From: an uncultured Alphaproteobacteria bacterium
GTDB lineage: Bacteria > Pseudomonadota > Alphaproteobacteria > Caulobacterales > Caulobacteraceae
NCBI GenBank assembly: GCA_903909375.1
Contig: CAIVVM010000036.1
Coordinates: 1-64,000, forward strand
Direction: 5' to 3'
DNA length: 64,000 nt
A model generated the notes under the pieces. The model was not told the DNA's origin. It saw nothing but the letters and a program-made list of their open reading frames with translations, and searched no databases. The first letter of the stretch is position 1. Each line of letters starts with the position of its first letter. The position numbers and the translations under genes are program-made. Positions 21,914 through 53,468 of this stretch are shown here, piece after piece.

Positions 21914-24900
21914 TCAGAGCGTGCGGCGAACTTCCTCAAGGGTGAAGCACTCGATGGTGTCGCCGGCCTTGATGTCCTGGAAGCCCTGGAACGCCATGCC
22001 GCATTCCTGGCCCGAGGGCACCTCATTGACCTCATCCTTGAAGCGCTTGAGCGTTTGCAGGGTGCCCAGTTCCAGCACAACAATGTCGGCCCGGATGATC
22101 CGGACGCGCGCGCCCTTGCGGACCACGCCCTCGGAAACCCGGCACCCGGCCACACGACCGATTTTCGAGATGTCGAAGGCCTGAAGCACCTCGGCGTTAC
22201 CCAGGAAGGTTTCGCGCTGGATTGGCGCCAGCATGCCCGAGAGCACGCCCTTCATGTCGTCAATCAGGTCGTAGATGATCGAGTAATAGCGAATCTCGAC
22301 GCCTTCGCGTTCGGCCAGCACCTGCGCCTGTTTCGAGGCGCGGACATTGAAGCCCAGGATTGGCGAGCCTGCGCCCTTGGCCAGCATCACGTCGCTTTCG
22401 CTGATGGCGCCCGCACCCGACAGGATGATCCGCGCACGGACCTCCTCGTGCGCCAGCTTGTCCAGCGAGCCAACGATGGCTTCCGCCGAGCCCTGCACGT
22501 CAGCCTTGATGATCACCGGAAGTTCAGAGACCTTCTTGTCCGCCAGCTTGGCCATCATGTCCGCCAGACTTGCGCCCTGGATCGGGGAGCCGGCCTTCTC
22601 GCGCTTTAGGCGTGTGCGATAATCGGTGAGTTCGCGGGCTCGCGCTTCGTTCTCCACGACGGCGAAGGGTTCGCCCGGCGACGGCGTGCCGTCCATGCCC
22701 AGGATCTCCACCGGCACTGAGGGGCCAGCTTCCGAAAGCTGTTCGCCGCGCTCGTTCAGCAGGGCGCGAACCCGGCCAAACGTGTCGCCGGCCACGACGA
22801 TATCGCCGCGCTTCAGGGTGCCGCGCTTGACCAGCACGGTGGAAACCGCGCCACGTCCGCGATCCAGCTTGGCTTCGATCACCATGCCGTCGGCGGTGCG
22901 ATCGGGATTGGCCTTTAGGTCCAGAACCTCGGCCTGCAGCAGGATGGCCTCGATCAGGTCGTCCAGCCCCATCTTCTCCTTGGCGGAGACCTGGATCGCC
23001 TGGGTATCGCCGCCCAGGCTTTCCACCACGATCTCGTGCTGGAGCAGTTCGTTGATCACGCGCGTCGGATCAGCGCCGGGTTTGTCGATCTTGTTGATCG
23101 CCACGATGATCGGCGCACCGGCCGCCTTGGCGTGATTGATGGCCTCGACGGTCTGGGGCATGACACCGTCGTCGGCCGCCACCACCAGCACCACGATATC
23201 GGTCACATTCGCACCGCGCATCCGCATGGCGGAGAAGGCTGCGTGGCCGGGGGTATCGAGGAAGGTGACCGCCTGGCCGCCCTCCAGCCGCACCTGATAG
23301 GCGCCGATATGCTGGGTGATACCGCCGTGCTCTCCGGAGACCACGTCAGCCGAACGCAGGGCGTCAAGCAGCGAGGTCTTGCCGTGGTCGACGTGGCCCA
23401 TCACGGTGACGACCGGCGGGCGAGCCACCAGATAGTCATCTACGTCCTCGGCGCCGATGAAGCCTTCTTCGACGTCGGCTTCCGACACGCGCCGGACTGT
23501 ATGGCCAAACTCCGTAGCCACCAGTTCAGCCGTGTCATTGTCGATGACATCGTTGATCTTGAGCATCACGCCCTGGCGCATCAGGAACTTGATGATCTCG
23601 ACGCCGCGCGTGGCCATCCGGTTGGCTAGATCGCCCACCGTGATCACGTCGGGAATGATGACCTCGCGGGCCACACGGGCCTGCTCGACCGTACCGCCCT
23701 TACGCTTTTCGCGCTCACGTTCACGGGCGCGGCGCACCGACGCCAGCGAGCGCATCCGCTCGGCGCCCTCGGCGTCGCCAGCTACGGTCTGGATGGTCAG
23801 GCGGCCCTCGCGGCGCGTGGGCGCGCCCTTGGCGCGGCTCATGGCCTTGCCTGGACCCGCATCCCTGCGGCTGCGATCGTCTTCCTCGGGTCGACGGTCC
23901 AGGGCCGCGCCGCCGGGACGGGGGGCCTGACGTGCGGCGCGCTGGACTTCCGGCGTTGCAGGAGGCGCGGCCGGACCGGTTCTTGGACCGGCGGGACCAC
24001 GGGGACCGCCGGGGCCGCGCGGGCCGGCGCCAGGCGCCGGTCGTGGGGCCAGCGCAGAATAGCGCACAGTGTTTCCGCCGGCGGCGGCGTCCTGACGAGG
24101 CCCGCGATCGCCTTGCGGACGATCATTGCGCTGCGGCGGGCCGCGATCATCGCGCGGCGGACGATCATCGGTGCGCGGGGCCCGTTGATTGAACGAGGCG
24201 CCCTCGAAGCGTCCGGTCGTGGGCGGTCGATAGGTGGTGGTCGTCGGGCGGTCGTCACGACGCTCATGCGACGGCTGATAGGACCGTGTCTGACCCGGGA
24301 GAGCCGGCGCAGCTGGCGCACGCGGCGCCGGCGCAGACGCCACCGGAGCAGAAGCCGGGGTCGGGATCGCAGCGACGACCGGAGCCGGAGCGGCAGCGGG
24401 AGTTGGGGCGGGAGCAGGCGCGGGCGCAGCGGCTGCCGGGGGCGTTTCGGGCGCAGCGACAGGGGCTGGCTTGGGAGCAACAGCCTCGACCGGAGCAGGC
24501 GGCGGCGCAGCGGCCAGACGGGCGGCTTCAGCAGCGGCGCGGGCACGGGCTTCCTGCGCCTGACGATCCGCCTCCTGGCGGGCCTGCTGGGCGCGGGCGG
24601 CCTCGATCACGCGCTGGCGTGCGGCGCGCTCATCGGCGGACAGGCCATCACCGGGACCGGCGGGCCGCTGGGCCGGCGTCGGCGCGGGCTTCGGCGGCTC
24701 GAACACCCGGCGCTCGGCGTTAGACGGCGCGGCAAGGTTACCCGCCGGCGCACCGTGCGGACGCGCGCGCTTGGTCTCGACCACCACAGTTTTTGTTCGA
24801 CCATGGCTGAAGCTTTGCTTCACCGTGCCAGAACTGACCGATCCACCGACGCGCGGCTTGAGGGTCAGGGGCTGGCGTCCGCCGGGGCCGGCGTTGCGGT

Positions 24901-24922
24901 CGTTGTTGTTCTCGTCGCTCAT
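21914..24922 (-). CDS. infB: Translation initiation factor IF-2
   Basis: 1002 residues. GTPase that brings fMet-tRNA to the 30S subunit. About 470 N-terminal residues are low-complexity (Pro/Ala then Arg/Gly/Asp-rich, typical of alphaproteobacterial IF-2). The G domain starts at [19 protein letters not shown], with DTPGHAAF (switch II) and AINKIDKP. The C-terminal domains II-IV have [19 protein letters not shown] and end GYDTIECF-like [17 protein letters not shown]. Starts with a methionine followed by SDENNN. Downstream of the YlxR-type gene with an 81-base gap. Confidence 0.98.
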
Positions 24923-25003: not shown

Positions 25004-25669
25004 CTAGGGCTCCCGCTTCGCCTCGCCAGGCTCCTCGCGCCAATCCTCAGGAAGGAGCGGACTAAATCCTGCGAAACGTCGGACATCTTCAGTCCAGCGC
25101 CCGGAGGCTCGCCCCGCAAGGAAGGCGGTGTGTATCACATTCTCCAGCCCCAAGGCCAAACCCAATTCCTCGCAGCTGAAGACACCGAAGACATCGGGGC
25201 CCGGCGTCTGCCGGCGAACCAACGCCATCACCTTGCGTCGACCATCCGGCGCGCCGTCCGAGGCCTCGATCAGCCAGGAAGCTCTGCCTGAGGAAATGGC
25301 GGCGCAGGCCTTCTCGAATCCCGAGACCAGATCTCCCGACCGTCGCGCCAGTCCGAGCCCAGCCAGCAGCCGGCGACGCAACAGGGCAGCCACCTGATCG
25401 GCGAGGTCCCTTGGCGCCGTCACCTTCGCCTTGGCCGAACGCGCGAAGAGACCACGCCTGGCCGCCGTCTCGACAGACGTTCGGTCCGCAGCCACCCAGA
25501 TCCCGCGGCCCGGCAGCTTGCGCGCCAGATCCGGCACAGCGTGGCCGTCCGGGTCAGCGACGAACCGGATCAGCCGCGCTTCCGTCATCACCTCGCCCGA
25601 GACGATGTCGCGGCGCTCGCGCGATGCCTCGGCGAGGGTCTTAGCGGGCCTGGCGGCGGCGGGCTCCAT
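25004..25669 (-). CDS. YlxR/DUF448 RNA-binding protein with C-terminal L7Ae-like domain
   Basis: 221 residues. The N-terminal YlxR/DUF448 domain (about 15-90) has the typical RRDIVSGEV...LIRFVADPDG and LPGRGIWVAADR motifs. The second half (about 95-200) resembles the L7Ae/L30e/YlxQ-type fold seen fused in alphaproteobacterial proteins. YlxR proteins are encoded between nusA and infB in many bacteria and have been proposed to act in RNA metabolism or nucleoid-linked regulation. Follows nusA by 21 bases, so co-transcribed. Confidence 0.9.
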   Translation of the reverse strand: MEPAAARPAKTLAEASRERRDIVSGEVMTEARLIRFVADPDGHAVPDLARKLPGRGIWVAADRTSVETAARRGLFARSAKAKVTAPRDLADQVAALLRRRLLAGLGLARRSGDLVSGFEKACAAISSGRASWLIEASDGAPDGRRKVMALVRRQTPGPDVFGVFSCEELGLALGLENVIHTAFLAGRASGRWTEDVRRFAGFSPLLPEDWREEPGEAKREP

Positions 25670-25690: not shown

Positions 25691-27415
25691 TTAGGAGTCT
25701 TGCGGCTCGCCGACGGCTTCCGCCTCGGCGGCGGGCCCTTCGGCCGAGCCAAACACGTCTTCTGCGGTCAATTCAGCCTCACCTTCGACTTCTTCAGGCT
25801 CCGGCTCTTCCGGCGCTTCGATCCAGCCCATCACTACGCGGGCGCGCATGATCAGCAGTTCTGCGTCCTGCGGTTCCAGGGAGAAGGTCTCCAGGATGCC
25901 GGCCTGGCGCACCCGCTCGCCGTTCTTGCTTTCGAACCAACCACGCAGGTCGTCCGGCACCAGACCGGCCAGGTCCTCGACGCTCTTCACATCGCCGGCG
26001 CCCAGGGCCACGGCCATCGGCAGGGTGATGCCCTCGATGGCCAGAACGCCGTCCTCGACGCCCAGTTCCCTACGCTTGCTGTCCAGCTCGGCGGCTTCCT
26101 TTTCCAGATAATCCTGGGCCCGCGCCTGTATCTCGGCGCCGGTTTCCTCATCGAAGCCCTCGATGGAGGCCACTTCGGAAACGTCGACATAGGCCACGTC
26201 TTCCACTGTGGCGAAGCCTTCGGTGACCAGCAGCTGGGCGATAACCTCGTCCACGTCCAGGGCTTCCTGGAAGAGCTGGGTGCGCTCGGCGAACTCGCGC
26301 TGGCGGCGCTCGCTCTCCTGGGCCTCGGTCATGATATCGATCTGCCAGCCGGTCAGCTGGCTGGCGAGACGCACGTTCTGGCCACGACGGCCGATGGCCA
26401 GGGACAGTTGCTCATCCGGCACAACCACTTCGACGCGCTCATCTTCCTCGTCCATCACCACCTTGGAAACCTCGGCGGGGGCCAGGGCGTTCACGATGAA
26501 AGTGGCCTCGTCCTGGCTCCACTGGATGATGTCGATCTTTTCGCCCTGCAGTTCGGCCACCACCGCCTGCACGCGGCTGCCGCGCATGCCGACGCAGGCG
26601 CCGACGGGATCAATCGATGAATCGTTGGAGATCACCGCCATCTTGGCGCGGCTGCCCGGATCGCGGGCCACGGCGCGGATCTCGATGACGCCGTCGTAGA
26701 CCTCGGGCACTTCCTGGGCGAACAGCTTGGCCATGAAGCCGCCGTGGGCGCGGCTGAGCAGGATCTGCGGACCCTTGGTCTCGCGGCGGACGTCATAGAT
26801 GTAGCAACGCACCCGGTCGCCGATATTGAAGTTCTCGCGCGGTATCGACTGGTCGCGGCGCATGATGCCCTCGCCCCGGCCCAGGTCGACCACGACGTTG
26901 CCGTACTCGACGCGCTTGACGGCGCCGCTGACGATCTCGCCGACGCGGTCCTTGTATTCCTCGAACTGGCGCTCGCGCTCGGCGTCGCGGACCTTGCCCA
27001 TCACCACCTGGCGGGCCATCTGGGTCTGCACCCGGCCAAACTCGAAGGGCGGCAGGATTTCGTCGTAGGTGTCGCCGATCTTGGCGGTCTTCTCGCGGCG
27101 CAGCGCGTCGGCCAGGCGCATGATGCCGGGCGGCTCCTCGAAGGGCAGCTCGGCGCCGTCATCATCCACGCCGCCGCCGAACACCGCGTCGTCGGCCACC
27201 ACGGTGATCACCCGCTTGATGGTGGTCTCGCCGGTCTTGGGATCGATGTGAACCCGGATGTCGTGCTCGGCGCCATAGCGCGAGCGGGCGCCCTTCTGGA
27301 TCGCTTCCTCGATCGCCTCGATGACGATTTCCTTGTCGATCGATTTCTCGCGGGCCACGGCCTCGGCGATCTGCAGGAGTTCAAGCCGGTTGGCGGAGAT
27401 GCCGGTGAGGCTCAT
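25691..27415 (-). CDS. nusA: Transcription termination/antitermination factor NusA
   Basis: 574 residues. Binds RNA polymerase near the RNA exit channel and modulates pausing, termination and antitermination. Domains in order: N-terminal domain ([25 protein letters not shown]), S1 domain (about 135-200), KH1/KH2 ([30 protein letters not shown]), then an acidic C-terminal pair of repeats with two helix-hairpin-helix-like segments ([13 protein letters not shown]). The tail is strongly acidic. Second gene of the rimP-nusA-ylxR-infB operon; 12 bases downstream of rimP. Confidence 0.98.
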
Positions 27416-27427
27416 GGGATTTCCTTC

Positions 27428-27988
27428 TTACTCGGTCGTCTGTTGTTGTTCGGACATCTGGCCTTCGGCAGCCAGGCGGGCCGCGCGAATGTCGGCGCCC
27501 CGCTTCATCAATGCGTCGGTCAGGACCAGCTTGGCCTCGACGATCCAGGCGAAGGGGACCAGCACGGTCTCGTCTTCGCCCTCAAGGTCCAGCGCCACCT
27601 GATCGCCTTCAATGCCGGCCAGATCGCCACGAAAGCGTTTGCGGCCCTCGGCCAGGCGATCCAGCTCGATCTTCGCCTCGTGGCCCTCGAAGGTGGCGAA
27701 ATCGGCCAGCCGGGTCAGCGGCCGGTCTACGCCGGGCGACGAGACCTCCAGTGTGTATTCGCCGCTGATCGGATCAGCTGCGTCCATGATCTCGGAAATC
27801 GCCCGCGACAGCCGCGCACAGTCCTCCACCACCATGTCGCCATCCGACTGCCGCTCGGCCATGATCTGCAACCGGCGCGTCTCGGCGCCGCCCATCAGGC
27901 GCAGGCGCACGATGGCGTAACCGGCTGCCTCGGCCACGGGGTCGAGCAGCTCCAGCAGGTTCAGATCTTCAGCGGTCTTCCCACGCAC
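27428..27988 (-). CDS. rimP: Ribosome maturation factor RimP
   Basis: About 186 residues from a GTG start ([24 protein letters not shown]). Needed for 30S maturation. The N-terminal alpha/beta domain has [19 protein letters not shown] and the [19 protein letters not shown] segment. The [17 protein letters not shown] signature is unmistakable, and the C-terminal SH3-like domain ends at about 165. Start: GTG at 27988 is preceded by GGAGG 11 bases up; a TTG at 28009 lacks a ribosome site. A terminator-like hairpin stands in the leader. Confidence 0.93.
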
Positions 27989-28007
27989 GGGAACCCAAGC
28001 CTCCGGC

Positions 28008-28042
28008 AAAGAAAAGAGCGGCCGGGCCGGAGCCCGCCGCTC
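28008..28042 (-). terminator. Terminator-like hairpin in the leader upstream of rimP (possible attenuator)
   Basis: Minus-strand GAGCGGCGGGC-tccg-GCCCGGCCGCTC is a stable stem with one bulge, immediately followed by TTTTCTTT. It has all intrinsic-terminator features, yet lies between a strong promoter and the rimP start. It therefore probably acts as a leader attenuator or produces a short leader RNA. Confidence 0.75.
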
Positions 28043-28080
28043 GTAGGCGCCATACAGCGCAAACGGACGATGTTGAGAGG

Positions 28081-28109
28081 TTTATAGCGGGCGAATGCGG
28101 GTTTGTCAG
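28081..28109 (-). promoter_or_regulatory. Sigma70-type promoter for the rimP-nusA-infB operon
   Basis: Minus strand: -35 CTGACA (28109-28104), exactly 17-base spacer, -10 TATAAA (28086-28081). The transcript would start near 28075 and run about 85 bases before the rimP GTG, through the leader hairpin. Confidence 0.75.
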
Positions 28110-28901: not shown

Positions 28902-28931
28902 ACTTGCAAACGCGTTCGCAAGTGTCTATAT
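28902..28931 (+). promoter_or_regulatory. Palindromic operator and promoter upstream of bfd (candidate iron-regulator site)
   Basis: ACTTGCAAACGCGTTCGCAAGT at 28902-28923 is a 22-bp palindrome with one mismatched pair. A TATATT (28926-28931) resembling a -10 follows at once. The first half, ACTTGCAAAC, recurs exactly at 29185-29194 ahead of bfr. A site overlapping a promoter of iron genes suggests Fur, Irr or RirA control (inference). Confidence 0.5.
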
Positions 28932-51674: not shown

Positions 51675-51704
51675 GAAAAAGGGCGGGACCTTCCGATCCC
51701 GCCC
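51675..51704 (-). terminator. Intrinsic terminator of groESL
   Basis: Minus-strand reading: GGGCGGGA-tcggaagg-TCCCGCCC followed by TTTTTC. It lies 73 bases after the groEL stop and faces the YvlD-like gene, so it may also slow transcripts from that side. Confidence 0.85.
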
Positions 51705-51714
51705 TCGATCTTTG

Positions 51715-51776: not shown

Positions 51777-53468
<1,692 letters not shown>

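Follow-up and report, generated by a model that had tools for sequence, protein, structure and literature searches.

A conserved terminator hairpin in the rimP-nusA-infB leader of Caulobacterales: a probable attenuator of the rimP-leader kind

Introduction

NusA takes part in transcription elongation and termination across the whole genome and stimulates hairpin-dependent intrinsic termination, and IF-2 starts translation. A terminator-like hairpin placed in front of the genes for both proteins therefore raises the question of what it does there: whether it attenuates the operon, possibly with NusA as the effector, whether it belongs to the gene upstream, or whether it is an accident of sequence. 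Here, we address this question for an operon of an uncultured, Phenylobacterium-like member of the Caulobacteraceae, for which the closest named loci come mostly from Phenylobacterium and Caulobacteraceae records, starting from the window (the whole 64,000-nt stretch of DNA analysed) and extending the comparison to the family, the order Caulobacterales and the class Alphaproteobacteria.

Organisation of the operon and its leader

All features of the operon lie on the minus strand. It begins with rimP (27428..27988; PF02576, 4.9e-22; PF17384, 3.4e-13), which has its GTG start at 27988, and continues with nusA (25691..27415), a ylxR-like gene of the DUF448 type (25004..25669; PF04296, 5.2e-18) and infB, encoding IF-2 (21914..24922; PF11987, 2.5e-40; PF00009, 1.8e-32). 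By Pfam, the NusA encoded downstream of the leader has S1 and KH domains in addition to NusA_N and HHH_5.

The promoter put forward in the original prediction, CTGACA-17-TATAAA, can be read directly from the sequence at 28109..28081, where a -35 element CTGACA (28104..28109) is separated by a 17-nt spacer from a -10 element TATAAA (28081..28086). TGACA or TTCCA stands at the matching place in 107/107 Caulobacteraceae leaders and TATA is present in the same 107/107; spacers of 19-20 in this promoter count partly reflect greedy pattern matching at -10 elements that read TATATA. Judged from spacing, transcription is predicted to start at A28074, 7 nt past the -10 element, and the ACATCG that follows this A is invariant (49/49 distinct Caulobacteraceae leaders). 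Such a start would give a leader of 86 nt, in good agreement with the length of about 85 bases originally proposed.

Two hairpins follow. The smaller, P1, reads GCGCT-GTAT-GGCGC (28047..28060; -6.0 kcal/mol). The larger is the terminator hairpin, GAGCGGCGGGC-TCCG-GCCCGGCCGCTC (28016..28042), which is built around a GGGC/GCCC core and has an 11-bp stem with a one-base G bulge (GAGCGGC-GGGC-TCCG-GCCC-(G bulge)-GCCGCTC, 28042..28016). It folds with -22.9 kcal/mol, and 97.0% of its cells are paired across 49 distinct leaders. It runs directly into the T-run TTTTCTTT (28008..28015), and a T-run is found in 49/49 distinct Caulobacteraceae leaders. The stable stem and T-run predicted to precede the rimP start are thus present at the positions originally given. 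A Shine-Dalgarno-like GGAGG (28000..28004) comes next, with the GTG 11 nt further on, such that 19 nt separate the end of the T-run from the start of rimP (27988).

The leader is not a chance fold

A standard promoter and terminator scan of the window listed neither the promoter nor the hairpin, the former because TATAAA does not have the T required at position 6 and the latter because its stem carries a one-base bulge. When bulges were tolerated, the rimP-leader hairpin ranked second by energy of 14 in the 64-kb window. The strongest terminator-like hairpin of the window (51680-51705, minus strand) immediately follows a groEL-like gene (51777-53426) on its 3' side and is probably an ordinary 3' terminator. 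Compared with shuffled sequences, both the 67-nt leader fold (-32.8 kcal/mol, z = -3.27; 0/200 shuffles as good) and the terminator hairpin alone (z = -3.38) are unusually stable; against this, a 106-nt segment that extends into rimP folds with ordinary stability (z = -0.95).

A chance explanation is removed by the conservation of promoter, hairpin and T-run. All 107 complete Caulobacteraceae leaders (49 distinct) have the promoter, the P1 region, the hairpin and the T-run in the same order. This set omits one locus with no upstream DNA (L078), one with its leader cut by a contig end (L041) and five Rhodobacteraceae-type records (L098, L099, L100, L103 and L104); distinct counts are used since many Caulobacteraceae genomes occur in both of two collections and supply their locus twice. 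Over the 49 distinct leaders, 97.8% of the cells in the two helices, P1 and terminator, are paired, and four pairs show double changes, compared with a mean of 1.3 in shuffles. For all five structure measures, 0/500 shuffles match the observed value and every slid control is lower, and RNAalifold run on the family leaders returned the same two hairpins (14/16 pairs). The GGGC..GCCC core itself is found in 38/49 distinct leaders. The original prediction had staked part of its case on conservation in relatives, and in the aligned leaders both stem and T-run are conserved.

The element is also specific to its site. In its own genome a covariance model gives a single strong match, at rimP, with 91.7 bits; the next (G000:C36:265877-265931, minus strand; 21.3 bits, E 0.048) is probably due to chance. 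Sequence, conservation, covariation and site specificity are matters of observation.

The hairpin does not serve the upstream gene

Directly upstream of rimP in the window lies thiE (PF02581; 28178-28921, minus strand), and since it ends upstream on the same strand the hairpin might be taken for its 3' terminator. However, every complete family leader has the hairpin, and the window's own locus is the only one of 104 with thiE upstream of rimP, the gene being found there in none of the other 103 with upstream DNA; moreover, the conserved promoter stands upstream of the hairpin. The hairpin does not, therefore, appear to serve thiE, and we reject this reading for want of synteny as extremely improbable. 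The gene neighbourhood upstream of rimP in the window differs in this respect from that of its relatives.

A further feature of this neighbourhood is a near-perfect 20-bp palindrome, CTTGCGAACG/CGTTTGCAAG, beside TCATTCTCATC (28903-28922). It is situated between thiE on the minus strand and plus-strand genes which, from reading their translations, look like bfd and bacterioferritin, and it is possibly a putative operator for a metal regulator.

Within the leader, the CTCCGGC of the window's terminator is complementary to a GCCGGAG at the rimP ribosome-binding site. Pairing between loop and Shine-Dalgarno sequence was nevertheless rejected, as over 49 leaders the mean duplex energy was -16.97 for own and -16.95 for permuted combinations, and 89/200 permutations were as good.

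Distribution in the order and class

The hairpin extends well beyond the family. Terminator-like hairpins of -10 kcal/mol or better are found in 84/84 distinct Caulobacteraceae upstream regions, together with a T-run in 32/32 leaders from four further Caulobacterales families, and in 78/89 distinct leaders sampled across the class; a qualifying hairpin is absent from the remaining 11/89, at least one of which (L210) is shortened by a contig end. The class survey examined the leaders of 90 (30 given loci and 60 further rows) of the 127 genomes with a RimP match. With a cut-off of -12 kcal/mol the hairpin was detected in 73/90 leaders on the sense strand, compared with 19/90 on the antisense strand and 81/450 shuffles.

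Across the class the stem also has a sequence signature. GTGGGC..GCCCAC followed by T is seen in 49/90 class leaders, in 5/90 on the antisense strand and not once in 928 kb of strand (20 genome stretches and the window), and terminators of the form GTGGGCC..GGCCCAC-T recur upstream of rimP in many class genomes (e.g., L159, L165 and L190). Similarly, 43/74 class rimP terminators have GGGC..GCCC compared with 1/98 other terminator-like hairpins. The stem is thus more conserved in sequence across the class than a terminator needs, which suggests that a protein recognises the stem. Elsewhere in the order, by contrast, the core is kept with a T-run in only 5/32 leaders. Here the hairpin outlives its sequence signature and a fixed NusA recognition sequence is therefore not strictly conserved. 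With an E cut-off of 0.01, the covariance model had matches in 57/100 genomes of the order, not all of them at rimP.

P1 and a candidate competing fold

P1 has 99.6% of its cells paired over the 49 distinct leaders. Two of its five pairs carry double changes, one in which C-G is replaced by U-A (7 rows) and one in which G-C gives way to C-G or A-U (2 rows). Taken as a sign of P1 in other groups, the general folding stability of the 34 nt that precede the terminator was not discriminating (mean z: order, -0.50; class, -0.92; Caulobacteraceae, -0.92).

When the window leader is truncated before the 3' arm of the terminator, its best fold is a lengthened P1 that includes AGCGG, the terminator's 5' foot. 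This fold defines a candidate antiterminator, with a 5' strand TCGTCCGT (28063..28070), also considered in a pairing test across the family, and a 3' strand made up of ACG and the foot AGCGG (28037..28044). The leader might accordingly be pictured as a two-state switch in which the upstream hairpin takes the terminator foot and a factor (such as NusA, RimP or NusG) picks the state. Consistent with this, the nascent minimum-energy fold takes at least 3 foot bases in 101/106 distinct leaders from five families of the order (f1 to f5, f1 being Caulobacteraceae), compared with 34/68 in other orders. The upstream part is also more stably folded than its shuffled versions, with mean energy z values of -2.68 (f1), -1.99 (f5) and -2.93 (f3); the leaders of family f5 form the hairpin again from an altered sequence (z below -1 in 26/29), with only 13/2000 half-swap permutations as good as the leaders' own halves, and P1 covaries in Caulobacteraceae. 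Pairing to the foot, on the other hand, is barely above shuffles in any of the five families (z 0.37 in f1, 0.71 in f5, 1.12 in f3, 0.18 in f4 and 0.03 in f2), because G-rich feet pair easily, and the expected number of foot pairs in Caulobacteraceae is not raised (mean z 0.14). In the Caulobacteraceae alignment the candidate antiterminator pairs are paired in 93.8% of cells, but double changes are no more frequent in these long-range pairs than in shuffles (1 pair compared with 1.8), and the full terminator is the more stable structure. RNAalifold on small per-family alignments of 8 rows each revealed no clear shared antiterminator, and the f5 prefix gave no pairs. From these modelled folds an antiterminator in the leader is possible, and we regard it as a lead rather than a result; a two-state switch of this kind is doubtful, and the fuller proposal, that the Caulobacterales rimP leader is an RNA switch in which NusA or another factor of the operon shifts the balance between antiterminator and terminator, seems rather unlikely. 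If true, it would mean that competing folds, and not a bare NusA-stimulated terminator, let the NusA and IF-2 operon gauge its own supply.

Relation to known rimP and nusA leaders

Leaders of this general type have been described before. In the part of their study consulted here, Naville & Gautheret (2010; PMC2965389) ranked rimP first among genes for attenuation, with NusA as the best candidate effector, and described a terminator that precedes rimP-nusA-infB, lies 4-130 nt from the gene and has a GGGc..gCCC stem. The element of the window is like it in its 5' UTR position before rimP-nusA-infB (genes identified by Pfam), in having an intrinsic-terminator hairpin with a T-stretch, in its core (GGGC-TCCG-GCCC) and in its distance, the 19 nt falling within 4-130 nt. 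The same part of that study presents a general motif without larger conserved elements or a visible antiterminator, whereas the present leader has a covarying P1 and an invariant ACATCG upstream of its terminator, as well as a possible, if only suggestive, fold that takes up the foot.

The Rfam model of the gammaproteobacterial rimP leader, RF01770, describes the same operon and the same type of terminator but does not match here. None of 289 genomes of the class exceeds its gathering cut-off, which E. coli does, and matches below the cut-off occur in 9/289. A search of the window found no Rfam family at gathering scores, RF01770 included, and the leader region gives weak matches, P5 and Xoo2 among them, that fall far short of the cut-off. 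On sequence grounds, then, the element belongs to the published kind by architecture and motif, not to the Rfam family by its model.

In Bacillus subtilis, NusA-stimulated termination takes place in the nusA 5' leader according to the part consulted of a review (PMC12288461, citing Mondal 2016). Both leaders contain an intrinsic terminator; dependence on NusA is reported for B. subtilis, whereas here it would be expected by analogy. For E. coli, the portion consulted of PMC6511841 places two terminators, t1 and t2, upstream of rimP and reports that operon transcripts rise when NusA-dependent termination is reduced. The terminator nearest rimP in E. coli K-12 reads CTGGGCTTTAGGCCCTTTTTTT and has the same core as that of the window; the E. 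coli leader has two terminators and the tRNA gene metY, in contrast to the one terminator and short leader found here. Control of rimP in E. coli is not simple, because rimP fusions are expressed at a lower level in a Rho mutant, as stated in the section consulted of PMC7815308. Within the literature covered, which lay mostly outside the subscription journals and the species lists of PMC2965389, no alphaproteobacterial rimP leader or antiterminator was recognised.

A model for attenuation of the operon

Taken together, these findings lead us to assign a probability of roughly three in four to the reading that the element is a Caulobacterales form of the rimP-leader attenuator, placed before the rimP-nusA-ylxR-infB operon and acting by premature termination with negative feedback by NusA. 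Start site, termination, the identity of NusA as effector and read-through as the regulated step are all parts of this reading that we infer. A housekeeping-type promoter would give rise to a leader of ~86 nt, in which RNA polymerase would meet the intrinsic terminator after ~65 nt. Some of the polymerases would terminate there, releasing an RNA of ~60-67 nt, and the remainder would read through; as the T-run ends just before the Shine-Dalgarno sequence, terminated transcripts could not make RimP, NusA or IF-2. Abundant NusA would most likely raise termination and so exert negative feedback on its own operon. NusA feedback at the rimP leader, which the original prediction had raised as autoregulation, is, by analogy with the precedents from B. 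subtilis and E. coli, the most likely interpretation, and the original reading is to this extent partly supported. The literature covered yielded no transcript data for alphaproteobacterial rimP, and the main text of a study of Zymomonas transcript ends (PMC7566282) makes no mention of rimP, nusA or infB.

The terminator could instead set a fixed read-through fraction without any feedback, and sequence alone cannot tell a fixed from a regulated terminator. Such constitutive attenuation is nonetheless unlikely, given the precedents for NusA feedback at the same operon in B. subtilis and E. coli and the conservation of the stem's sequence signature across the class. It is very unlikely that the released leader acts in trans as a small RNA: defined ends and two conserved hairpins could indeed make for a stable RNA, but the own genome has a single strong match, at rimP, and the conserved place before rimP points to action in cis. 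Attenuation with NusA feedback thus remains the preferred reading.

Significance

The attenuator kind, and NusA feedback in other bacteria, are already known, and by analogy the leader described here is a probable feedback brake of the same type. What is added is its extent across the order and class, together with P1 and its covariation and a candidate fold that would compete with the terminator; neither P1 nor the published family had figured in the original prediction. A published but thinly characterised attenuator is thereby extended over most sampled families of a class that is missed by the Rfam model, and a clean leader alignment is now available for a new one. The genes for NusA and IF-2 both stand behind one terminator, and this leader offers a specific case in which possible recognition of a conserved terminator sequence by NusA can be examined.
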